Positions 8,407 to 31,750 of a DNA stretch of 64,000 bases are shown piece by piece. The position numbers and the translations under genes were made by a program. Origin of the DNA: Argopecten irradians (Eukaryota; Mollusca; Bivalvia; Pectinida; Pectinidae); assembly GCF_041381155.1 (NCBI RefSeq), contig NC_091136.1, forward strand, positions 52,318,284-52,382,283. Direction: 5' to 3'. The notes beneath the pieces were generated by a model, which did no database searches, was not told the origin of the DNA, and saw nothing but the letters and a program-made list of their open reading frames with translations. The stretch's first letter is position 1. The number at the start of each line of letters is the position of its first letter.

Positions 8407-11400
8407 GACTGGAGATATGTTATGAGAAGGCAGATGCAAGTAAGTCTTTCTACAATTAAAAGCTTAACATTCAGTTCTATAAAACTCATGACACCACATG
8501 TAAAATGTTGTAATATTTCCCCAAAGGATATTATATAAACTCATTATATCTTGGTGAATATGAATTACAATGCATCTTAAATACTAAAAATTAACGAAGA
8601 TGCATCATTGGTTAAAAAGAACAGATTAATCAAGGCTTCTTATTTATTTTTCCTTATTAAACATGAATTTACATATAACAGAGTACAGTATGTCAGTAAA
8701 ACCTGCTTTAGCGACCACATCTGTATAAAGACTACCTTCTTATATAAGACCCTGTTACTTAGGGCTCTATATGACCAATTTCAACCAAATTTAATCTGTG
8801 TTTAAAGACCACCTGGCTATAAAGATCACTTTTGAGTTTTTAATCAATAGTTGTCTTGAATATATTAATGTATTCAGACCTTTTTTTGATGAACAGGAGA
8901 TTGTTCCAAACCTATACCTGGGGCCATACGCAGCTGCCATGAAATCACAGGTTAGTCAAGGTTTGTCTGTACTGTCTGGGGAAGCTCATCAGGATCAAAA
9001 GTGTTCATAGACCTCCCTGAGAACTAGGATCTGTTTGATATAAAGTACCAGTAATTTAGATAATTAACAATGCCTTTCCCTACCATGTTTTCATATTGAC
9101 ACACAGATGATAATGTTACAGGTTAATACATGTAGGTCCGTCCTTTTTTTCATGGAACTCTGGGATTCCTACAACACTAGATTCTGACAATTGTTCTGAT
9201 CCATACAGGTGTTTAGTTTGTGTTATTATTAACCCAAAGCCAAATTGATTAAAATCATAAAAGATCTTTACCAGGACATCAATTAAATGAGGACTACCTA
9301 AGCATTTTCTCTTGTGCTTTCTTTAAGTTTTACTTCGGTATATTCTTTTTTGTTTGTGACTTATAACAAGTCACAGAATTATATATGTTACTTACCTTTT
9401 TACCTAGTTTTGTGTCCTTTTCAGTTACCGTGTTTACAACAACATGGCATTACACACATAGTGTGCATCAGGCAGAATATCGAAGCTAACTTTGTGAAAC
9501 CAAACTTCCCAGAATATTTTAAGTAAGTTCTATGACGGCTGTATGTTGTCATATGTTTGCTTTGCAGCATATAAAGTAATCACATAAGTGACTTGTTCAA
9601 ATCTACACTTGTAAGGACACTTGTAAACACATTGATGTCATCCAACACTAATCTTGATTTGTCTCATAATGATATTGATGAGTATTATAATGTTATTATT
9701 TTACTTGTATAAGATAAGATTAAATGTACACATCTGTTACTTTCTTTAATAAGTAAAATTTATTTTCTCTCATTGATGATAAATAAAAACACATACAGGA
9801 ATGTCTTACAGGTACCTTGTGTTAGACATAGCTGACTGTATGACTGAGAATATCATCAGGTTTTTTTCTCAGGTAAGTAACTTTGGGTACAGATAAACAC
9901 AAACCTCTAGAAATTAACTGTGTTTTTGTCATGAATTTAATGTTCAATTAATGCTGTGTGTATCATAATGTAACTTACTGAATGAATACCAATAGTTGGT
10001 AGTTTTACAACTGCTTCTGGACAAACATTTAAATATGTCTAAAGTTTTCAGTATAAATTTACACTCTGATTTGCAATTTCTCCCAAGGTTCATTGCGACC
10101 TCTGACAACAACCCATGGACTGGCTATTTGTTGATCTGAGATGAAAGAATATCAAGACAGTTGTTTTGTACATTGTAGTAAAATTGCAGATTATGTCACA
10201 ACAATTGTTTTTGAAACGATGGACATTGTATGCAAATCGTGACTTATAGTTATTTATATATTATATCCACAATATAATCCATAGTGTTTGGCTTAAAACT
10301 ATAATCTGCCATATCTAGCAGTTAATTGTTACCAAGCAAATGATACAAAAGGAAAGTTAAAATATCTGTATATGAAAGAATTCATTATGCTTCCGAATCT
10401 GAATTTTTGAATGTTTTTCAAGAATCTTGAACATTTTCGTGGGATGTTTACAGAGCTGAAATCAAGGAACCACAATAAACTCTAGGAGAAATTGTCTGAT
10501 TTGTGGTAAATATGATCTTTTTCAGGTTAGAGATTTTTTGAATGAATGTTTCCGAAGTGGCGGGAAGGCTTTGGTACATGGAAACGGTGGAATCTCCAGA
10601 AGGTAGGCTGACAGTGTTCATAAGATATTTATGATAGTAGATAAAAGACCTACACTCCAAACTAAAGTGCAGCGGCCACCAATTCTATGTTTTGAGAAAA
10701 GTCTCATCAATATAGGGATAGGAATTGTTCTTCTGTCAGATTGATTCCAGAGCACAGATATCACTATGACCTTGCAAAGTACCTGCTGTGGAAAAGTCTA
10801 TACCTATAAGTATTAAAGATATCTTTGTTTAATTTTTGAAATCTAAAACCTAGACTTTATTAAAAGATTGCTATAGTAACACCGTTTTATTTTATCTTAA
10901 TAACTTATATGTACATGACAATAGAAGTATTTTATGTTTTATTGCAGTGCTGCTTTAGTGATAGCTTACATAATGGAAACATATGGGTTATCATTTCGGT
11001 AAGTACCTAGGAGCAGCTTACATAATGGAAACATATGGGTTATCATTTCGGTAAGTACCTAGGAGCAGCTTACATAATGGAAACATATGGGTTATCATTT
11101 CGGTAAGTACCTAGGAGCAGCTTACATAATGGAAACATATGGGTTATCATTTCGGTAAGTACCTAGGAGCAGCTTACATAATGGAAACATATGGGTTATC
11201 ATTTCGGTAAGTACCTAGGAGCAGCTTACATAATGGAAACATATGGGTTATCATTTCGGTAAGTACCTAGGAGCAGCTTACATAATGGAAACATATGGGT
11301 TATCATTTCGGTAAGTACCTAGGAGCAGCTTACATAATGGAAACATATGGGTTATCATTTCGGTAAGTACCTAGGAGCAGCTTACATAATGGAAACATAT

Positions 11401-14400
11401 GGGTTATCATTTCGGTAAGTACCTAGGAGCAGCTTACATAATGGAAACATATGGGTTATCATTTCGGTAAGTACCTAGGAGCAGCTTACATAATGGAAAC
11501 ATATGGGTTATCATTTCGGTAAGTACCTAGGAGCAGCTTACATAATGGAAACATATGGGTTATCATTTCGGTAAGTACCTAGGAGCAGCTTACATAATGG
11601 AAACATATGGGTTATCATTTCGGTAAGTACCTAGGAGCAGCTTACATAATGGAAACATATGGGTATCATTTTCGGTAAGTACCTAGGAGCAGCTTACATA
11701 ATGGAAACATATGGGTTATCATTTCGGTAAGTACCTAGGAGCAGCTTACATAATGGAAACATATGGGTTATCATTTCGGTAAGTACCTAGGAGCAGCTTA
11801 CATAATGGAAACATATGGGTTATCATTTCGGTAAGTACCTAGGAGCAGCTTACATAATGGAAACATATGGGTTATCATTTCGGTAAGTACCTAGGAGCAG
11901 CTTACATAATGGAAACATATGGGTAATCATTTCGGTAAGTACCTAGGAGCAGCTTACATAATGGAAACATATGGGTTATCATTTCGGTAAGTACCTAGGA
12001 GCAGCTTACATAATGGAAACATATGGGTTATCATTTCGGTAAGTACCTAGGAGCAGCTTACATAATGGAAACATATGGGTTATCATTTCGGTAAGTACCT
12101 AGGAGCAGCTTACATAATGGAAACATATGGGTTATCATTTCGGTAAGTACCTAGGAGCAGCTTACATAATGGAAACATATGGGTTATCATTTCGGTAAGT
12201 ACCTAGGAGCAGCTTACATAATGGAAACATATGGGTTATCATTTCGGTAAATGCCTAGGAGCAGCTTAAAGCTTACATACTGGAAACATAATGGTTATTA
12301 TTTCGGTAAGTACCTCGGAGCAGCTTAGTTCATAATGAATATGGGATGTATGGATGATAATTAAGTTCCCCCAATAGAGTGGGGAACTTAATGTGTTTGC
12401 TCCATTTCTTATTCTTCTTCTTTTTCTTCTTCTTCTTCTGGTTCTTTCTTCTTTTTCCGTCGCGACTTTGTCCGACAGTTTTCTCGAAAACTATAAATCG
12501 GATCGCCATGAAATTTTGTGAGGTCAATTCTGGTGACCTGCATGTCGACCGGTTTCATTTTTTCCGACCAGCATCAAAGATGGAAGCCACAGCCTTTCGT
12601 TGTTAAAAATTGAACTGCTTATAGATATTAACAACTGGTCCGATTTGCCTGGAATCGGTTTCAATATGTAAATTAAATCAAATTATAAATTGTTAAAGTG
12701 GAAAATACCATAATAATGAGTAAAAAACAAAATTTTGGACTGTTTCAAATTTTTCAAAACCAGTAAGAGTTATCACCCTTTATTTACTAGTCAGCAGTGT
12801 TCTGTTTTAGGTCCAAGTTAATTTTTGTTGCATTTAAGTCAAAGATAATACTGTTACTAGTGACATCAAACTATTTCGAGGTCATTTATTGGGGGGGGGG
12901 GGTAATTTTTGCAGACCATCAGTCTGGGGAGGTCACTCTTGTCAAATTAGGCTCTGTGGAGATTGGGGGAACTTTATGTGACGGTACCCATCACAATTAG
13001 ATCTTGTTCTTCCTGTAAGCTTGATGTTGACCATTTTGACTTGTCCCACCTTTAAGATCATCCCATGAGTTACACCTTTAAGATCATCCCATGAGAAGTT
13101 TGTGTATATATTATCACATGACCTTGACTACAGGCTTTGATTGACTCATACACAAGTAATTACCTGTATGGCAATGCAAAAATAAGCATTTTGACCTTTG
13201 ACCTTCATGGATGTATTTGATATTCCTAAGGTTCAACATTACCTTCACTAGACCTTTATACTTTGGTCAAAAAGTCACTCTTGTAATTGATATTGCTTGC
13301 TGCTGAAACTTCTTCATTTGGTAATAAAGGAGAGGCAGTATCATGTACCTGAAGTAGATCACTGTGACTATGTATAACCTACATCAAATAGGTCAATGTT
13401 TCAGTTTCCTGTACAATTAATGATCAAGCAATGACTGTATTTTCTTAATTTGCTTTATTTTCTTGATATATATTTCAGTAACGCATTTGTATTTGTACAA
13501 CAAAGACGTTTCTGCATCAACCCAAATGAAGGCTTTGTTCAGCAGTTAACTGTAAGTGTTTATGTAGTCAGATATTCTATTTTTTTTTTTTTAGGTCACC
13601 TGAGACGAAGTCTCAAGTGACCTATTCTAATCGCTTTTTGTCCGTCGTCGTGCGTCGACCGTCGTGTGTTCGTAAACAATTTACATTTTCGACTTCTTCT
13701 CAAAAACCGCCGAAGCAATTTCAATGAAATTTGGCACAAACCCTTTGAAGGCATAAGGCCAATCAAAATTGTGAATTATATGACCCCCACCCCCCAGGGG
13801 GCTGTGGGAGGGGCCAAAAGGGGCAAAATTGACTAACATTTCAAAAATCTTCTCCTCCACTCACAGATGTGGTAGAATCAAATACTCTTCATAGATAGAA
13901 AGGTCTCAAGGCCCTCTACAAAAATTGTGAATTATATGACCCTGGGGTCTCAGGTTTCCCCCTGGGGAGGGGGTTAAGTTTACTATAGTTTATATAGTGA
14001 AAACACATTTTGGAGCATTACTTGGTCATTTATAATAGAAAATTAGTCAAATGTTGTCAGAATTATCCCTATGAAATGGCCATTGAATTCTATTAACAAA
14101 TTTTCCATGACTGACTCCCAGGGGCCTTAGGGGCGGGGCCAAAAGGGGTCAAATAGGCTAAAAATAGGGGTCTCGTGTTTCCCCCTGGGGAGGGGGTCAA
14201 GTTAACTATAGTTTATATAGGAAAAACACATATATGAATGTTTTTTGCTTATTTGTCATAGGAAATTAGTCAAACAGGGTTAGAATGTTTAGCCTGAGAT
14301 AGCATTTTATCGCCATAACCATATTGGTCCTGGCTGACCTCCAGGGGCCTTAGGGGCGGGGTCAAATAGGCTAAAACTTGACAAAAATCTTCTTCTGAAT

Positions 14401-24655: not shown

Positions 24656-25190
24656 TGGTAGTGTAAACGACTTCCTCACACGGGACTGACTTTCAACACT
24701 CTTCCTAAACTGTGTGTAGACATCTGGTAAACTGAAAGCCATCATCAAACAATTATATAAAATATGCTACTTATTTTGGATATGTATAGTTCCTATCAAA
24801 TCTGTACCGTATAGCTGGTCATTTTCACAGTGATGATATTTTTTTGGCAATTCTGTGAACTAATGTTATGATTGTAAAAATTTAAACTCAAATTTTATAA
24901 ATGTTTGAATAATATATACAAGTATGTTTATTATAGCCATAACACGAAAATTTAAAACGGCTTAAATTTGGTTTTCCTGTTTTTATATAGATCAAAGCAC
25001 AAAGCCCCACAGTTAACAGAGTATTCCTAATAAATTAACCCAAATAAAGCTCTAAATACAGCAGGCTCCGATTTCTTGACACAAAAGTTCCGACTCAAGT
25101 CAAACCTTAAGTTTTTTATCTTATATAACTTATATGAATATTTTTTACTGAAGTCAGTTTTTGACTTAAGTTTGTTTCGAGAAATCGGGG

Positions 25191-27260
25191 CCTTTAACTT
25201 CTTATATTGTTGACTTGGTTGCCTGATAATTGAAGAACAAACCTTTAACTTGTTATATTATTGACTTGGTTGCCTGATAATTGAAGAACAAACTTTTAAC
25301 TTGTTATATTGTTGACTTGGTTGCCTGATAATTGAAGAACAAACCTTTAACTTGTTATATTGTTGACTTGGTTGCCTGATAATTGAAGAACAAACCTTTA
25401 ACTTGTTATATTGTTGACTTGGTTGCCTGATAATTGAAGAACAAACCTTTAACTTGTTATATTATTGACTTGGTTGCCTGATAATTGAAGAACAAACTTT
25501 TAACTTGTTATATTATTGACTTGGTTGCCTGATAATTGAAGAACAAACCTTTTAACTTGTTATATTGTTGACTTGGTTGCCTGATAATTGAAGAACTAAC
25601 CTTTAACTTGTTATATTATTGACTTGGTTGCCTGATAATTGAAGAACTAACCTTTAACTTGTTATATTACTGACTTGGTTGCCTGATAATTGAAGAACAA
25701 ACCTTTAACTTGTTATATTGTTGACTTGGTTGCCTGATAATTGAAGAACAAACCTTTAACTTGTTATATTGTTGACTTGGTTGCCTGATAATTGAAGAAC
25801 AAACCTTTAACTTGTTATATTATTGACTTGGTTGCCTGATAATTGAAGAACAAACCTTTAACTTGTTATATTATTGACTTGGTTGCCTGATAATTGAAGA
25901 ACAAACCTTTAACTTGTTATATTGTTGACTTGGTTGCCTGATAATTGAAGAACTAACCTTTAACTTGTTATATTGTTGACTTGGTTGCCTGATAATTGAA
26001 GAACAAACCTTTAACTTGTTATATTGTTGACTTGGTTGCCTGATAATTGAAGAACAAACCTTTAACTTGTTATATTATTGACTTGGTTGCCTGATAATTG
26101 AAGAACAAACCTTTAACTTGTTATATTATTGACTTGGTTGCCTGATAATTGAAGAACAAACTTTTAACTTGTTATATTATTGACTTGGTTGCCTGATAAT
26201 TGAAGAACAAACTTTTAACTTGTTATATTGTTGACTTGGTTGCCTGATAATTGAAGAACTAACCTTTAACTTGTTATATTATTGACTTGGTTGCCTGATA
26301 ATTGAAGAACTAACCTTTAACTTGTTATATTATTGACTTGGTTGCCTGATAATTGAAGAACAAACCTTTAACTTGTTATATTGTTGACTTGGTTGCCTGA
26401 TAATTGAAGAACAAACCTTTAACTTGTTATATTGTTGACTTGGTTGCCTGATAATTGAAGAACAAACCTTTAACTTGTTATATTATTGACTTGGTTGCCT
26501 GATAATTGAAGAACAAACCTTTAACTTGTTATATTGTTGACTTGGTTGCCTGATAATTGAAGAACAAACCTTTAACTTGTTATATTGTTGACTTGGTTGC
26601 CTGATAATTGAAGAACAAACCTTTAACTTGTTATATTATTGACTTGTTTGACTGATAATTGAAGAACAAACCTTTTACTTGTTATATTGTTGACTTGGTT
26701 GCCTGATAATTGAAGAACAAACCTTTAACTTGTTATATTGTTGACTTGGTTGCCTGATAATTAAAGAACTAACCTTTAACTTGTTATATTATTGACTTGG
26801 TTGCCTGATAATTGAAGAACAAACCTTTTACTTGTTATATTATTGACTTGGTTGCCTGATAATTGAAGAACAAACCTTTAACTTGTTATATTGTTGACTT
26901 GGTTGCCTGATAATTGAAGAACAAACCTTTAACTTGTTATATTATTGACTTGTTTGACTGATAATTGAAGAACAAACCTTTTACTTGTTATATTGTTGAC
27001 TTGGTTGCCTGATAATTAAAGAACTAACCTTTAACTTGTTATATTATTGACTTGTTTGACTGATAATTGAAGAACAAACCTTTTACTTGTTATATTGTTG
27101 ACTTGGTTGCCTGATAATTGAAGAACAAACCTTTTACTTGTTATATTGTTGACTTGGTTGCCTGATAATTGAAGAACTAACCTTTAACTTGTTATATTAT
27201 TGACTTGGTTGCCTGTATATTGTTGACTTGGTTGCCTGTATATTGTTGACTTGATTGCCT
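25191..27260 (-). repeat. 51-bp minisatellite, about 40 copies, in a CRY-DASH intron
   Basis: The unit contains TTGACTTGGTTGCCTGATAA, TTGAAGAACAAACCTTTAAC and TTGTTATATTG. Period is 51 (for example 25210 to 25261). Variants alternate at three sites (ATTATTG/ATTGTTG, AACAAAC/AACTAAC, CCTTTAA/CTTTTAA), and sub-blocks recur, suggesting expansion by blocks. On the minus strand the array starts about 35 bases after the donor of the exon ending at 27294. Its right end degenerates into 27-base partial units (27213-27260). Confidence 0.97.
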
Positions 27261-27630
27261 GATAAGAAGTCACTAAGATGGTGTCTTACTTACTGTTCAA
27301 CCTTGTATGGAAGGTCATCCCTATGGTACAATGTGTGACCCCAAAATGTTTGAACTTTCACCCCACAACTCTTCTGCAGTCCTGACTCTACGTCAAGCTC
27401 TTCATTGGTGGCCTATTCATGAAAAACAATGTAACACAAATTATAAAGTCATATACTAAATATATCACATGTATAAATCATTTATAAAAACAATACCATG
27501 GGTAGTTGTTAATTTACAAAAAGTTTTTTTGTTTTTGATGAAGACCAAAAACCATGAATTGCATTATTATTTTTTCCATAGTTTACAAGAAATGTATGGA
27601 TTCAAGGTTTTGTGCATGATTAGGAGATTG

Positions 27631-27675
27631 ATTCGGACAAAGTGTTCTGTATATGTTACCAACAGAAGGTAAGTA
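27631..27675 (+). repeat. Inverted copy of the CRY-DASH exon-3 end and splice donor
   Basis: The plus strand reads GGACAAAGTGTTCTGTATAT, GTTACCAACAGAAG, then GTAAGTACTA. The minus-strand exon 28599-28500 ends with nearly the same bases and donor. The copy faces the opposite way from the gene and from the adjacent array, about 90 bases from the array edge. Confidence 0.8.
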
Positions 27676-27734
27676 CTATGCTTCTTATAATCATGTATGT
27701 TTGTGTTAATTAAGTCTGCCTAAGTTTTCCATAA

Positions 27735-28499
27735 AACTACCTCCTGTAAGTAACATACACAGGACACTTCGTACCCACCAACAGTCTGTATGATCTGTGG
27801 TACTTTCCTCCTGTAAGTATCATACACAGGACACTTGGTCCCCACCAACAGTCTGTATGATCTGTTGTACTAACCTCCTGTTGGTAACATACACAGGACA
27901 CTTTGTCCCCCACCAACAGTCTGTATGATCTGTGGTACTAACCTCCTGTTGGTAACATACACAGGACACTTTGTCCCCACCAACAGTCTGTATGATCTGT
28001 GGTACTAACCTCCTGTTGGTAACATACACAGGACATTTTGTCCCACACCAACAGTCAGTATAATCTGTGGTACTAACCTCCTGTTGGTACGTAACATACA
28101 CAGGACACTTTGTTCCCCACCAACAGTCTGTATGATCTGTGGTACTAACCTCCTGTTGGTAACATACACAGGACACTTTGTCCCCACCAACAGTCTGTAT
28201 GATCTGTGGTACTAACCTCCTGTTGGTTACATACACAGGAAGGACACTTTGTCCCCCACCAAAATTCTGTATGATCTGTGGTACTTACCTCCTGTTGGTA
28301 ACATACACAGGACACTTTGTCCCCACCAACAGTCAGTATAATCTGTGGTACTAACCTCCTGTTGGTACGTAACATACACAGGACACTTTGTTCCCCACCA
28401 ACAGTCTGTATGATCTGTGGTACTAACCTCCTGTTGGTTACATACACAGGAAGGACACTTTGTCCCCCACCAAAATTCTGTATGATCTGTGGTACTTAC
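27735..28499 (-). repeat. About 67-bp minisatellite made of CRY-DASH exon end plus 5' splice site
   Basis: Eleven units of 66-72 bases follow the true exon end (28500). On the minus strand each has CAGACTGTTGGTGGGGACAA, AGTGTCCTGTGTATGTTACC, AACAGGAG and then a donor-like GTTAGT, GTAAGT or GAAAGT and TACCACAGATCATA. The exon donor itself is GTAAGT. A block including TACGTAACATACACAGG recurs at about 28090 and 28368 and AGGAAGGACAC at 28227 and 28448, so multi-unit blocks were copied. Units differ more than those in STYX. Confidence 0.95.
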
Positions 28500-28700
28500 C
28501 TCCTGTTGGTAACATACACAGGACACTTTGTCTCCACCAACAGTCTGAATTATTTGTGGTACTATTTCCTCTGGTTTTCCCATTCTGATCACCAATCCAC
28601 TGTCAACAAAATACATGAAGAGCATATAATTAATCATATCTTATATAAACACTTCTGACAGTCAACAACATTCAATCCCAACAATACCAAGCACTAACTA

Positions 28701-29437
28701 CAGTGGAACCTCCCGAAACCGATCATGGTCGGTGTATATAATTTCGGCCGGTTTAGAGAGGGTTCGGTTTGGAGAAGTGGACCGAATACCGATCATTACG
28801 ATCCGGATTTAATCGATCTGAAGTCGTTTTTTTACACTAGTGTACCGCATGTATGGCTAGTGTTCGTCAAAACAGACCGATATTGATTGTTAATGTGAAT
28901 GTTATCACAAAAGAGAGAATCATACGTTTAAAAGAAATGGATTACAACAATCTTGACTTTGTTACCGCTTCTTCATGCAGATAATTTAGCTCTGCTTGTT
29001 TTCATAGACAGTAAACAAATCGCGTGCACGTGGTAGACCTCGGTTAAAAAATCTAAACAATAGACATGATTATATCATTACACCACCATCTCGGATATAA
29101 TTATCGTGTACCTATAGCATTTACATATGTATATATGCCCCAGGGCATGACATGCGACAACTATGGTACAGGTACGTGTGTATTTCACGGTTGGTTGATC
29201 AGACCTCAATGCAATCTATCGGTGTCGCTCAGGTAAGGCCGGTTTTCAAAAGTGTATTTTAGTTACATTTGACTATTCCGGTCTCAAAATCGGTCCGATA
29301 TTCGGAATTGGGAGGGATCGGTTTTGGGATGTTTTATATACTATTAATAAAGATAAATTCATTCCGTACATAACATCCATATTTGGTTTCTAGAGGTGAT
29401 CGGTTTTGAGAAGGTTCGGTTTTGGGAAGTTACACTG
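28701..29437. mobile_element. Tc1/mariner-like MITE in CRY-DASH intron, 737 bp
   Basis: The left end CAGTGGAACCTCCCGAAACC and right end GGTTTTGGGAAGTTACACTG are imperfect inverted repeats flanked by TA on both sides (28699-28700, 29438-29439). A CAGTG...ACTCCC-type end with a TA target fits pogo/Tigger-like mariner elements. CGGTTT motifs repeat subterminally. No transposase is visible. Confidence 0.75.
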
Positions 29438-29926
29438 TATAAAGATATAACTATCATCAAGCGTAAATTTCAGTTTTTATGTTATGGTATTAGTAATTAA
29501 TATTTATAACATTCTTTTTCATTTTGAATGATAAAGACCTATTAGTCCTTAAAGGTGGAGGTGCAATATATTTTGGTAGCAATTGAGATCAAGACATTTG
29601 TAATTCCTGGTACAGTGGTAAGAAGTCATGCAACTGTAGAATCTGTATTGCTAAAGCATCATCCACGACTTGTGTATCTCCGTATCAAGTTAAGTCCATA
29701 TATTAGTCTAATACAACATTCCTTACATTATGTAAAATTTGTTAAAGTTTCAAAAAAAAGGTAAAATACATGTATAAAATATCCATGTGTTTTGGGTTTT
29801 TATCAAATTTTGATAATTATTTAAAATAAAACACACAATAGTGACAATATGTCCCTGATCAGTTAATGTTTCCAATGTGTCTCTTCAAAATTACACATCG
29901 AAAATGATTTACTTATATTGCATATA

Positions 29927-31159: not shown

Positions 31160-31750
31160 CTGAAGCCGGATTGGACTTGGTCGATCATCCGTGACCATGT
31201 AGCTCAGTCGGTCACTAGAGCACTCCGCTAGTGTTTGGAGGGTCCCGGGTTTCGAATCATGGTCTGGTCGCTACATTTCCTCCTCTGCTGTTACAGAATT
31301 GGCGCCCAACTAAATAACCCATGGTGGTGGATTTGGAAGGGTCTCGCATGTCTTCGAGGGTGAAGAAGAATTCGAGAAAGGAGGGAGGAGTGAAGCGGGA
31401 TTGGATTGGGTCAATCATCGGCGACCAGGTAGCTCAGTCAGTAGAGCACTTGGCTAGTGTTTGGAGGGTCCCGGGTTCGAATCCCAGTCAGGCCGCTACA
31501 TTTTCTCCACTCCTGTTACAGAATTGGCGCCCAACTAAACAACCCATGGTACGTGGTGGTGTTTGGAGGGGTCTCGTATGTCTTCGAGGGTGAAAACTTC
31601 GAGAAAGGAGGGAGGAGCGTAGTGTGATTGGACTGGGTCGACCATCGATGACCAGGTAGCTTAGTCAGTAGAGCACTCGGCTAGTGTTCTGAGGGTTCCG
31701 GATTCGAATCCCGGTCTGGACGCAACATTTTCTTCTCTCCTGTTCCCATT
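31160..31750 (+). repeat. Three tandem units (about 230 bp) each with a tRNA-like sequence
   Basis: tRNA-like cores lie at 31193-31269, 31423-31494 and 31650-31721. Each has an A-box (TAGCTCAGTCGGT / TAGCTCAGTCAGTAGAGC), a T-loop/B-box (GGTTCGAATCC; copies 1 and 3 vary) and an acceptor-like GACCAGG/TCTGGTC pairing. The anticodon arm is irregular, so these are tRNA-derived rather than working tRNA genes. Between cores: TTACAGAATTGGCGCCCAAC, TCGCATGTCTTCGAGGGTG, GAGAAAGGAGGGAGGAG. TGGCGCCCAAC resembles a retroelement primer-binding site, but no such element is visible here. Confidence 0.75.

Follow-up and report, generated by a model that had tools for sequence, protein, structure and literature searches.

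A minisatellite carrying the 5' splice site of a STYX exon in Argopecten irradians, and recurrent arrays of the same kind at other exon ends of the genome

How a conserved gene can still be expressed when the end of one of its exons, together with the adjoining 5' splice site, stands in 26 tandem copies is the question raised by a locus of the bivalve Argopecten irradians. The locus lies in a stretch of 64,000 nucleotides (C3:52318284-52382283, on contig NC_091136.1; hereafter the window) of an 846-Mb assembly of 1508 contigs (GCF_041381155.1), and the gene encodes the serine/threonine/tyrosine-interacting protein STYX. On balance we favour the explanation that the array is a minisatellite which arose by duplication across the exon/intron boundary and was spared by exon definition at the first donor, and that arrays of its kind form a recurrent class. 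The features on which this rests are collected in Table 1.

Tandem Repeats Finder (TRF) places the STYX array at 10963-12327, with a period of 52 bp, 26.1 copies, 97% matches and a score of 2595. Each unit consists of the last 36 nt of an exon and the first 16 nt of the following intron, including GTAAGT, and in every unit the 5' splice site keeps its phase relative to the exon end, the property by which a minisatellite of the type known from human IFI6 (discussed below) is recognized. The array contains 26 CGGTAA donors, one per unit, of which 25 read GTAAGT and that of unit 25 reads GTAAAT. The stretch from 12322 may represent a further, decayed unit; its score was matched by 22 of 1000 shuffles, or by 94 of 1000 when the shared AGCTTA was left out. 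Where 0.02 occurrences of TTTCGGTAAGTACC would be expected in the window, 25 are present, and a junction-spanning pattern searched through the whole assembly with up to three mismatches gave 24 matches, all of them at the STYX locus. An earlier note on this DNA, made from the letters alone, had described a STYX exon end and its donor amplified in a 52-bp unit of 36 coding and 16 intron bases, giving about 26 near-identical donors, and had taken the near identity of the units to imply recent expansion or homogenization; its account is borne out on each of these points, 22 of the 25 regular units being identical.

The identity of the gene rests on seven exons (8407-8439 to 13479-13551) that can be joined with the reading frame intact; the first STYX exon was not located. 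Joined to the first part of the exon that follows, these give as their best match in the PDB STYX itself (2r0b, E 3.9e-72), with DUSP22 as runner-up (E 2.7e-22), so that STYX is the closest among the dual-specificity phosphatases, and in Pfam they match DSPc (7.9e-32). The hallmark of STYX is a glycine that replaces the catalytic cysteine in an HGNxGISRS loop, and the joined exons encode HGNGGISRS, which aligns to HGNAGISRS of 2r0b. A search of the genome with the protein gave 21 matches, of which six are pieces of the STYX locus and 15 lie elsewhere at 28-45% identity, as would be expected of related phosphatases; neither this search nor that with the junction pattern revealed, in the assembly, a second STYX copy or paralogue able to relieve the gene.

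The consequence of splicing from a later donor can be read directly. With CG as the last two bases of the exon and GTAAGT as the first six of the intron, read-through yields CGG TAA; because this TAA sits inside the first donor, all donors except donor 1 give the same truncated STYX protein, independently of any frame effect of (n-1) x 52 nt. The earlier note had located the harm of later donors in the fact that 52 is not a multiple of 3, an argument now superseded, whereas its conclusion that splicing must favour the first donor stands, every later donor running into the same stop. Its formula, by which donor n adds (n-1) x 52 nt, applies to the regular units and fails for donor 26, which is offset by the 7-nt fragment that precedes its unit.

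We infer that donor 1 is the donor used. Both introns flanking the exon at 10948-10998 are longer than 250 nt (345 nt upstream and 2480 nt downstream). According to a study of competing donors, the upstream of two near-equal donors is preferred at exons with long flanking introns, and in minigenes whose two identical donors were separated by 52 nt the upstream donor was used exclusively (PMC9225289). In folding predictions, the openness of donor 1 against that of the internal STYX donors was 0.011 against about 0.004 in a 150-nt window, 0.099 against about 0.0055 in a 300-nt window and 0.11 against about 0.002 in a 600-nt window; donor 1 is thus predicted to be the more open at all three sizes, and the real openness ratio of 18 was reached by none of 12 arrays of shuffled units placed around the same donor.

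Table 1. Exons, donors and arrays at the loci discussed. Positions without a prefix are those of the window; C1 and C5 are other contigs of the assembly.
Feature	Position	Strand	Unit, exon/intron (nt)	Basis
Five STYX exons 5' of the array	8407-8439, 8897-8950, 9425-9522, 9812-9872, 10526-10602	+		Splice signals, open joined frame, 2r0b and DSPc matches
STYX coding exon, 51 nt; unit 1 takes in its last 36 nt	10948-10998	+		Flanked by tgcag and gtaagt
Donor 1, GTAAGT; keeps the STYX frame	10999-11004	+		Splice signals and frame reading
In-frame TAA reached by transcripts from any donor after the first	11000-11002	+		Frame reading
Twenty-five 52-bp units in a row (variants: 14, 19, 25)	10963-12262	+	36/16	TRF and unit-by-unit reading
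7-nt fragment (12263-12269) and one diverged 52-bp unit with donor 26 (12270-12321)	12263-12321	+		Unit-by-unit reading
Next STYX exon, expected partner of donor 1	13479-13551	+		Splice signals, joined frame
DNA-photolyase-type exon, ends GTTACCAACAGGAG/GTAAGTACC (exon/intron; CAGGAG before donor)	28500-28599	-		Reading; PF00875 with next exon
Array of photolyase-type exon end and donor, 12 copies, 67-72-bp units	27739-28564	-		TRF and reading
Enolase exon end	C1:205871		31/10	Pfam 5.3e-10, PDB 1.1e-10
Armadillo-like exon end (name is our reading)	C1:1198069		7/33	Frame, splice signals; weak match to a designed protein, 6.5e-4
ABCB-type transporter exon end, first (L050)	C1:2757186		36/13	Pfam ABC_tran 4.8e-12
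ABCB-type transporter exon end, second (L051)	C1:2762393		19/18	PDB ABCB1 5.8e-13
Guanylate cyclase exon end (L054)	C1:5148387-5149221		35/13	Homology 6.5e-7
Mitofusin exon end	C1:6463090		36/6	Homology 4.7e-9
SNF2-type helicase exon end (L061, right edge)	C1:2580371-2583001		16/26	Exon 5.1e-5 (below curated cut-off); adjacent exon 6.4e-9
LRR gene exon end	C1:28898435			LRR_4 9.8e-6, just below cut-off; exon end aligns with unit
Cadherin exon end	C5:717955			8.4e-7 when joined to preceding exon

The arrangement is not confined to STYX, a point that the earlier note had missed. A photolyase-type exon on the opposite strand of the same window passes, at 28599-28500, directly into an array of its own end and donor; taken together with the exon that follows, it has a match to DNA photolyase (PF00875, 1.3e-7), and the gene is one that we take, more finely, to be a cryptochrome-DASH. 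Many of its later units have GTTAGT in place of GTAAGT. A Pfam search of all six frames of 25000-29902 gave only two matches, both below the curated cut-offs, and missed the photolyase-type exons. About 80 nt into the next intron of this minus-strand gene (donor near 27293) starts another array, of 40 copies of a 51-bp unit (25191-27215), which adjoins that 5' splice site without including it.

Besides STYX, ten exon ends with donor arrays were recognized, the photolyase-type one in the window and nine elsewhere in the genome, and for nine of the ten the exon, alone or with its neighbour, shows homology in Pfam or the PDB; the armadillo-like exon had no Pfam match. Searching for three occurrences of GGTAAGT at a spacing of 27-57 bp separated seven arrays among the matches listed, which cover 2.76 Mb from the start of C1, while CAGGTAAGT separated four in the first 6.47 Mb, again among the matches listed; the GGTAAGT list is not complete for both strands, since it omits an array at C1:337803 that was recovered with CAGGTAAGT. 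When the 5' flanks of these 11 arrays were read, six were found to begin within a coding exon and to repeat the donor of that exon, namely the enolase, armadillo-like, two ABCB-type, guanylate cyclase and mitofusin arrays. Because the word had been chosen as a donor, this proportion is no evidence of an excess, and it shows that the class exists. No exon was seen at the edge of four arrays (L040, L043, L049 and L052), and for L053 the fetched stretch ended before the 5' edge. L049 (C1:2348488-2352091) is composed of units of about 54 bp, each with the donor word and a pyrimidine-rich stretch ending in TGTAG, and each of these units resembles a very small intron. The two ABCB-type arrays, each at an exon of its own, are separated by about 5 kb and have different units, of 49 and 37 bp.

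Other arrays were chosen by words that are not donors. The flanks of 31 such arrays were inspected, eight found with GTAGGAT and seven with TTTCCAG by reading and by script, and 16 found with TGAATGGAC by script, and three of the 31 span a 5' splice site, in the SNF2-type, LRR and cadherin genes. At the LRR locus the alignment score of exon end and array unit was reached by one of 2000 shuffles, and the donor has been lost from later units; the cadherin exon, searched alone, showed no detectable homology. Among the 31 arrays no 3' splice site backed by homology came out of the script, a weak negative, as the script also missed known donor cases (STYX, the photolyase-type exon, the first ABCB exon and the LRR exon), and the counts given here therefore come from reading and homology. 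Five script candidates (L056, L068, L070, L076 and L100) were unconfirmed and not counted. In at least seven of the 31 arrays (L057, L063, L068, L076, L085, L091 and L095) the edge lay beyond the fetched stretch, and the main row of the script spans only part of some TGAATGGAC arrays, for example L087 and L098.

Across the eight loci measured (all but the photolyase-type, LRR and cadherin loci) the exon part of the unit ranges from 7 to 36 nt. Unit length is divisible by 3 at three of the 11 loci (48, 42 and 42 bp, with the photolyase-type unit taken as 67 bp), which is about the chance level, as if the units were normally untranslated. On read-through past donor 1, the STYX, enolase, armadillo-like and mitofusin genes reach a stop within 5 nt; in the LRR, ABCB, cadherin and photolyase-type genes the stop comes 27 to 270 nt on.

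Whether such arrays are commoner than chance placement would allow was assessed from distinct arrays, grouped by eye in the listed stretches. In the genome, GGTAAGT repeated three times at 27-57 bp gave 26318 matches, compared with 7483 for TGAATGG, 10511 for GTAGGAT, 9758 for TAGGATG, 3345 for TTTCCAG and 10413 for GACCTTT. Among the matches listed, distinct arrays per Mb numbered 2.5 for GGTAAGT (7 in 2.76 Mb), against 0.27 for GTAGGAT (8 in 29.2 Mb) and 0.41 for TTTCCAG (7 in 16.9 Mb). For the longer words the corresponding densities were 0.62 for CAGGTAAGT (4 in 6.47 Mb) and 0.17 for CAGGTGAGT (12 in 71.1 Mb), against 0.019 for the control TGAATGGAC (16 in 846 Mb) and 0.042 for the control CAGGATAGT (9 in 216 Mb); among the matches listed, the nine-base donor words thus have about 4 to 33 times as many arrays per Mb as the two control words. 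The 12 CAGGTGAGT arrays include one pair of mutual copies (C1:30128459 and C1:30361808) and four arrays known from one match each, and many of the CAGGATAGT arrays belong to one family. Sites of CAGGTAAGT, array copies included, are 3.6 times as numerous as those of the reversed word (19404 against 5409), and correction for the number of sites shrinks the donor-word excess, to P 0.001 for CAGGTAAGT against TGAATGGAC and 0.017 against CAGGATAGT, a correction resting on the single-site counts of CAGGTAAGT and the reversed word alone. For three or more of the 31 arrays chosen by other words to span a 5' splice site, the binomial P is 0.002 if the expected share is 0.8%, 0.007 at 1.25%, 0.024 at 2% and 0.065 at 3%; a share of about 1% would follow if the genome holds some 150,000-280,000 introns, which is an assumed figure.

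Enrichment at the level of matches (CAGGTAAGT 3278 and CAGGTGAGT 1895, with the four controls scattering widely at 91, 306, 779 and 1594) was dropped as the main statistic, since large arrays dominate it. GTAGGAT is an imperfect control, as its array at C1:572428 (L056, uncounted) may use GTAGGA as a donor. A mirror test with the acceptor word TTTCCAG (3345 matches against 10413 for the reversed word, with none of its seven arrays spanning a splice site) was judged weak, because the word is rarely a true acceptor. Taken together, the evidence that the donor-array class recurs in the genome is good, and that for an excess over chance placement is moderate. Two other repeats were noted along the way: a tandem family (CAGGATAGTGACAACCAT and variants), met through a control word at C1:4976218, C1:34474053, C2:6476037, C3:5253895 and C3:12799908, and, at 31162-31744 of the window, a 227-bp tandem unit in 2.6 copies that contains tRNA-like sequence and that we presume may be a tRNA-derived short interspersed element.

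Our current working hypothesis is that a tandem duplication across the STYX exon/intron boundary was followed by growth of a minisatellite, and that exon definition would pair the acceptor ending at 10947 with the nearest donor, which is donor 1. The other 25 donors would then be intronic and be spliced out with the intron, leaving the protein unchanged, and any leakage to a later donor would end at the same TAA and presumably lead to nonsense-mediated decay. By the same process the 5' splice sites of unrelated conserved genes would have been amplified together with the short exon segments listed in Table 1. The first AG past the branch point is usually taken, and where an array covers a 3' splice site one would therefore expect repeats to enter the mRNA and the array to be lost. 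Tolerance of this kind would explain why the arrays persist.

A number of points weigh against this hypothesis. When human alternative 5' events are not filtered for donor strength, the downstream donor is favoured in about 60% of them (PMC9225289), and the exon-definition rule itself derives from human cells. Human IFI6 employs two downstream repeat units as donors (PMC4526556), and because of this strict first-donor use is no rule. The folding result comes from a model with 12 controls, and the gap is small at the shortest window. Finally, in the guanylate cyclase (48-bp units) and SNF2-type (42-bp units) genes the read-through frame is open as far as it was read, and later donors could there add 16 and 14 residues per unit, respectively.

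An excess over arrays elsewhere is not explained by tolerance alone, and may reflect either a mutational hotspot at donors that are transcribed or an advantage conferred by additional U1 sites. It is possible, and we put it forward only tentatively, that in this genome minisatellites preferentially arise or are kept at 5' splice sites as hotspots, either because transcribed donors are prone to tandem duplication or because surplus U1 sites beside an exon are useful, with arrays at 3' splice sites being lost; extrapolation from the few loci would then give hundreds or more of exon ends with arrays. That the arrays are themselves selected, their surplus donors binding extra U1 small nuclear ribonucleoprotein and so improving exon recognition or protecting from early polyadenylation, seems to us rather unlikely. 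Donor-word arrays do exceed control-word arrays, the donors are strong, to judge by the predicted U1 pairing of STYX donor 1 (-10.7 kcal/mol, the second of seven STYX donors), and 25 of the 26 STYX donors are intact, but near-identical units need only recent expansion, and the donor is changed in the LRR gene and in many units of the photolyase-type array.

It is improbable that the array regulates STYX, with the share of later-donor transcripts, all stopped at once, setting the level of productive mRNA, much as in the tunable pool of non-productive transcripts that the earlier note had named as an alternative. All later STYX donors are indeed non-productive, and IFI6 repeat units are described as alternative donors (PMC4526556), but unrelated genes carry the arrangement with differing consequences, an immediate stop in some and an open frame in others, and the minigenes with identical donors 52 nt apart are reported to give only the upstream product (PMC9225289). 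Because the photolyase-type and nine other exon ends share the arrangement, a device specific to STYX is the less likely. We give little credence also to the idea that a duplicated boundary or AGGT segment made or lengthened the intron, of which the repeats would be a remnant: tandem duplication is an accepted route to new introns (PMC4974935, PMC2891723), and for a fission yeast an intron is cited that spans an exonic 24-bp repeat in four copies (PMC4974935), but the STYX intron has more than 1 kb of non-array sequence and then an ordinary acceptor. An assembly artefact that multiplied one or a few units, suggested by the 22 identical STYX units, is hardly credible given the variant and diverged units within that array and the many loci with similar arrays of differing divergence.

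Among known systems, human IFI6 comes closest. Turri and colleagues reportedly described, in 1995, a splice-donor minisatellite in human IFI6 (6-16, G1P3), with a 12-bp, in-frame unit, and to our knowledge this was the one splice-donor minisatellite known beforehand. Both are minisatellites at an exon end with splice donors in their units. For IFI6, two of the downstream units are reported to serve as donors, yielding three mRNAs (PMC4526556), whereas the STYX unit is 52 bp long and each of its later donors leads at once to a stop; moreover, IFI6 is a single gene, and here 11 loci are found in one genome. Intron gain by tandem duplication, as in the near intron pairs of Drosophila (PMC2891723) and the fission yeast repeats, is similar in that a duplication across or near a boundary is absorbed by splicing, but in those cases one or a few duplications made a new intron, whereas here dozens of copies open a longer intron and carry its donor. 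A TSSK1-like gene of abalone likewise has a minisatellite of differing repeat number in a mollusc gene, but its 27-bp array lies inside intron 3, and no donor in the unit is mentioned (PMC6905558). The minigenes discussed above share with STYX identical competing donors, a 52-nt spacing and flanking introns longer than 250 nt, but are designed constructs with two donors and human-type splicing, compared with a natural array of 26 (PMC9225289). No account of a genome-wide class of splice-donor minisatellites was found in the literature searched, which is weak evidence of absence, subscription journals lying mostly outside it.

At the affected exons such arrays may mislead gene prediction and short-read mapping. 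In the STYX, enolase, mitofusin, ABC transporter and other genes of one genome, nature has repeatedly tested the choice among many identical donors, and the arrays are thus natural experiments on exon definition, on the origin of minisatellites and on the tolerance of 5' as compared with 3' splice sites to duplication.

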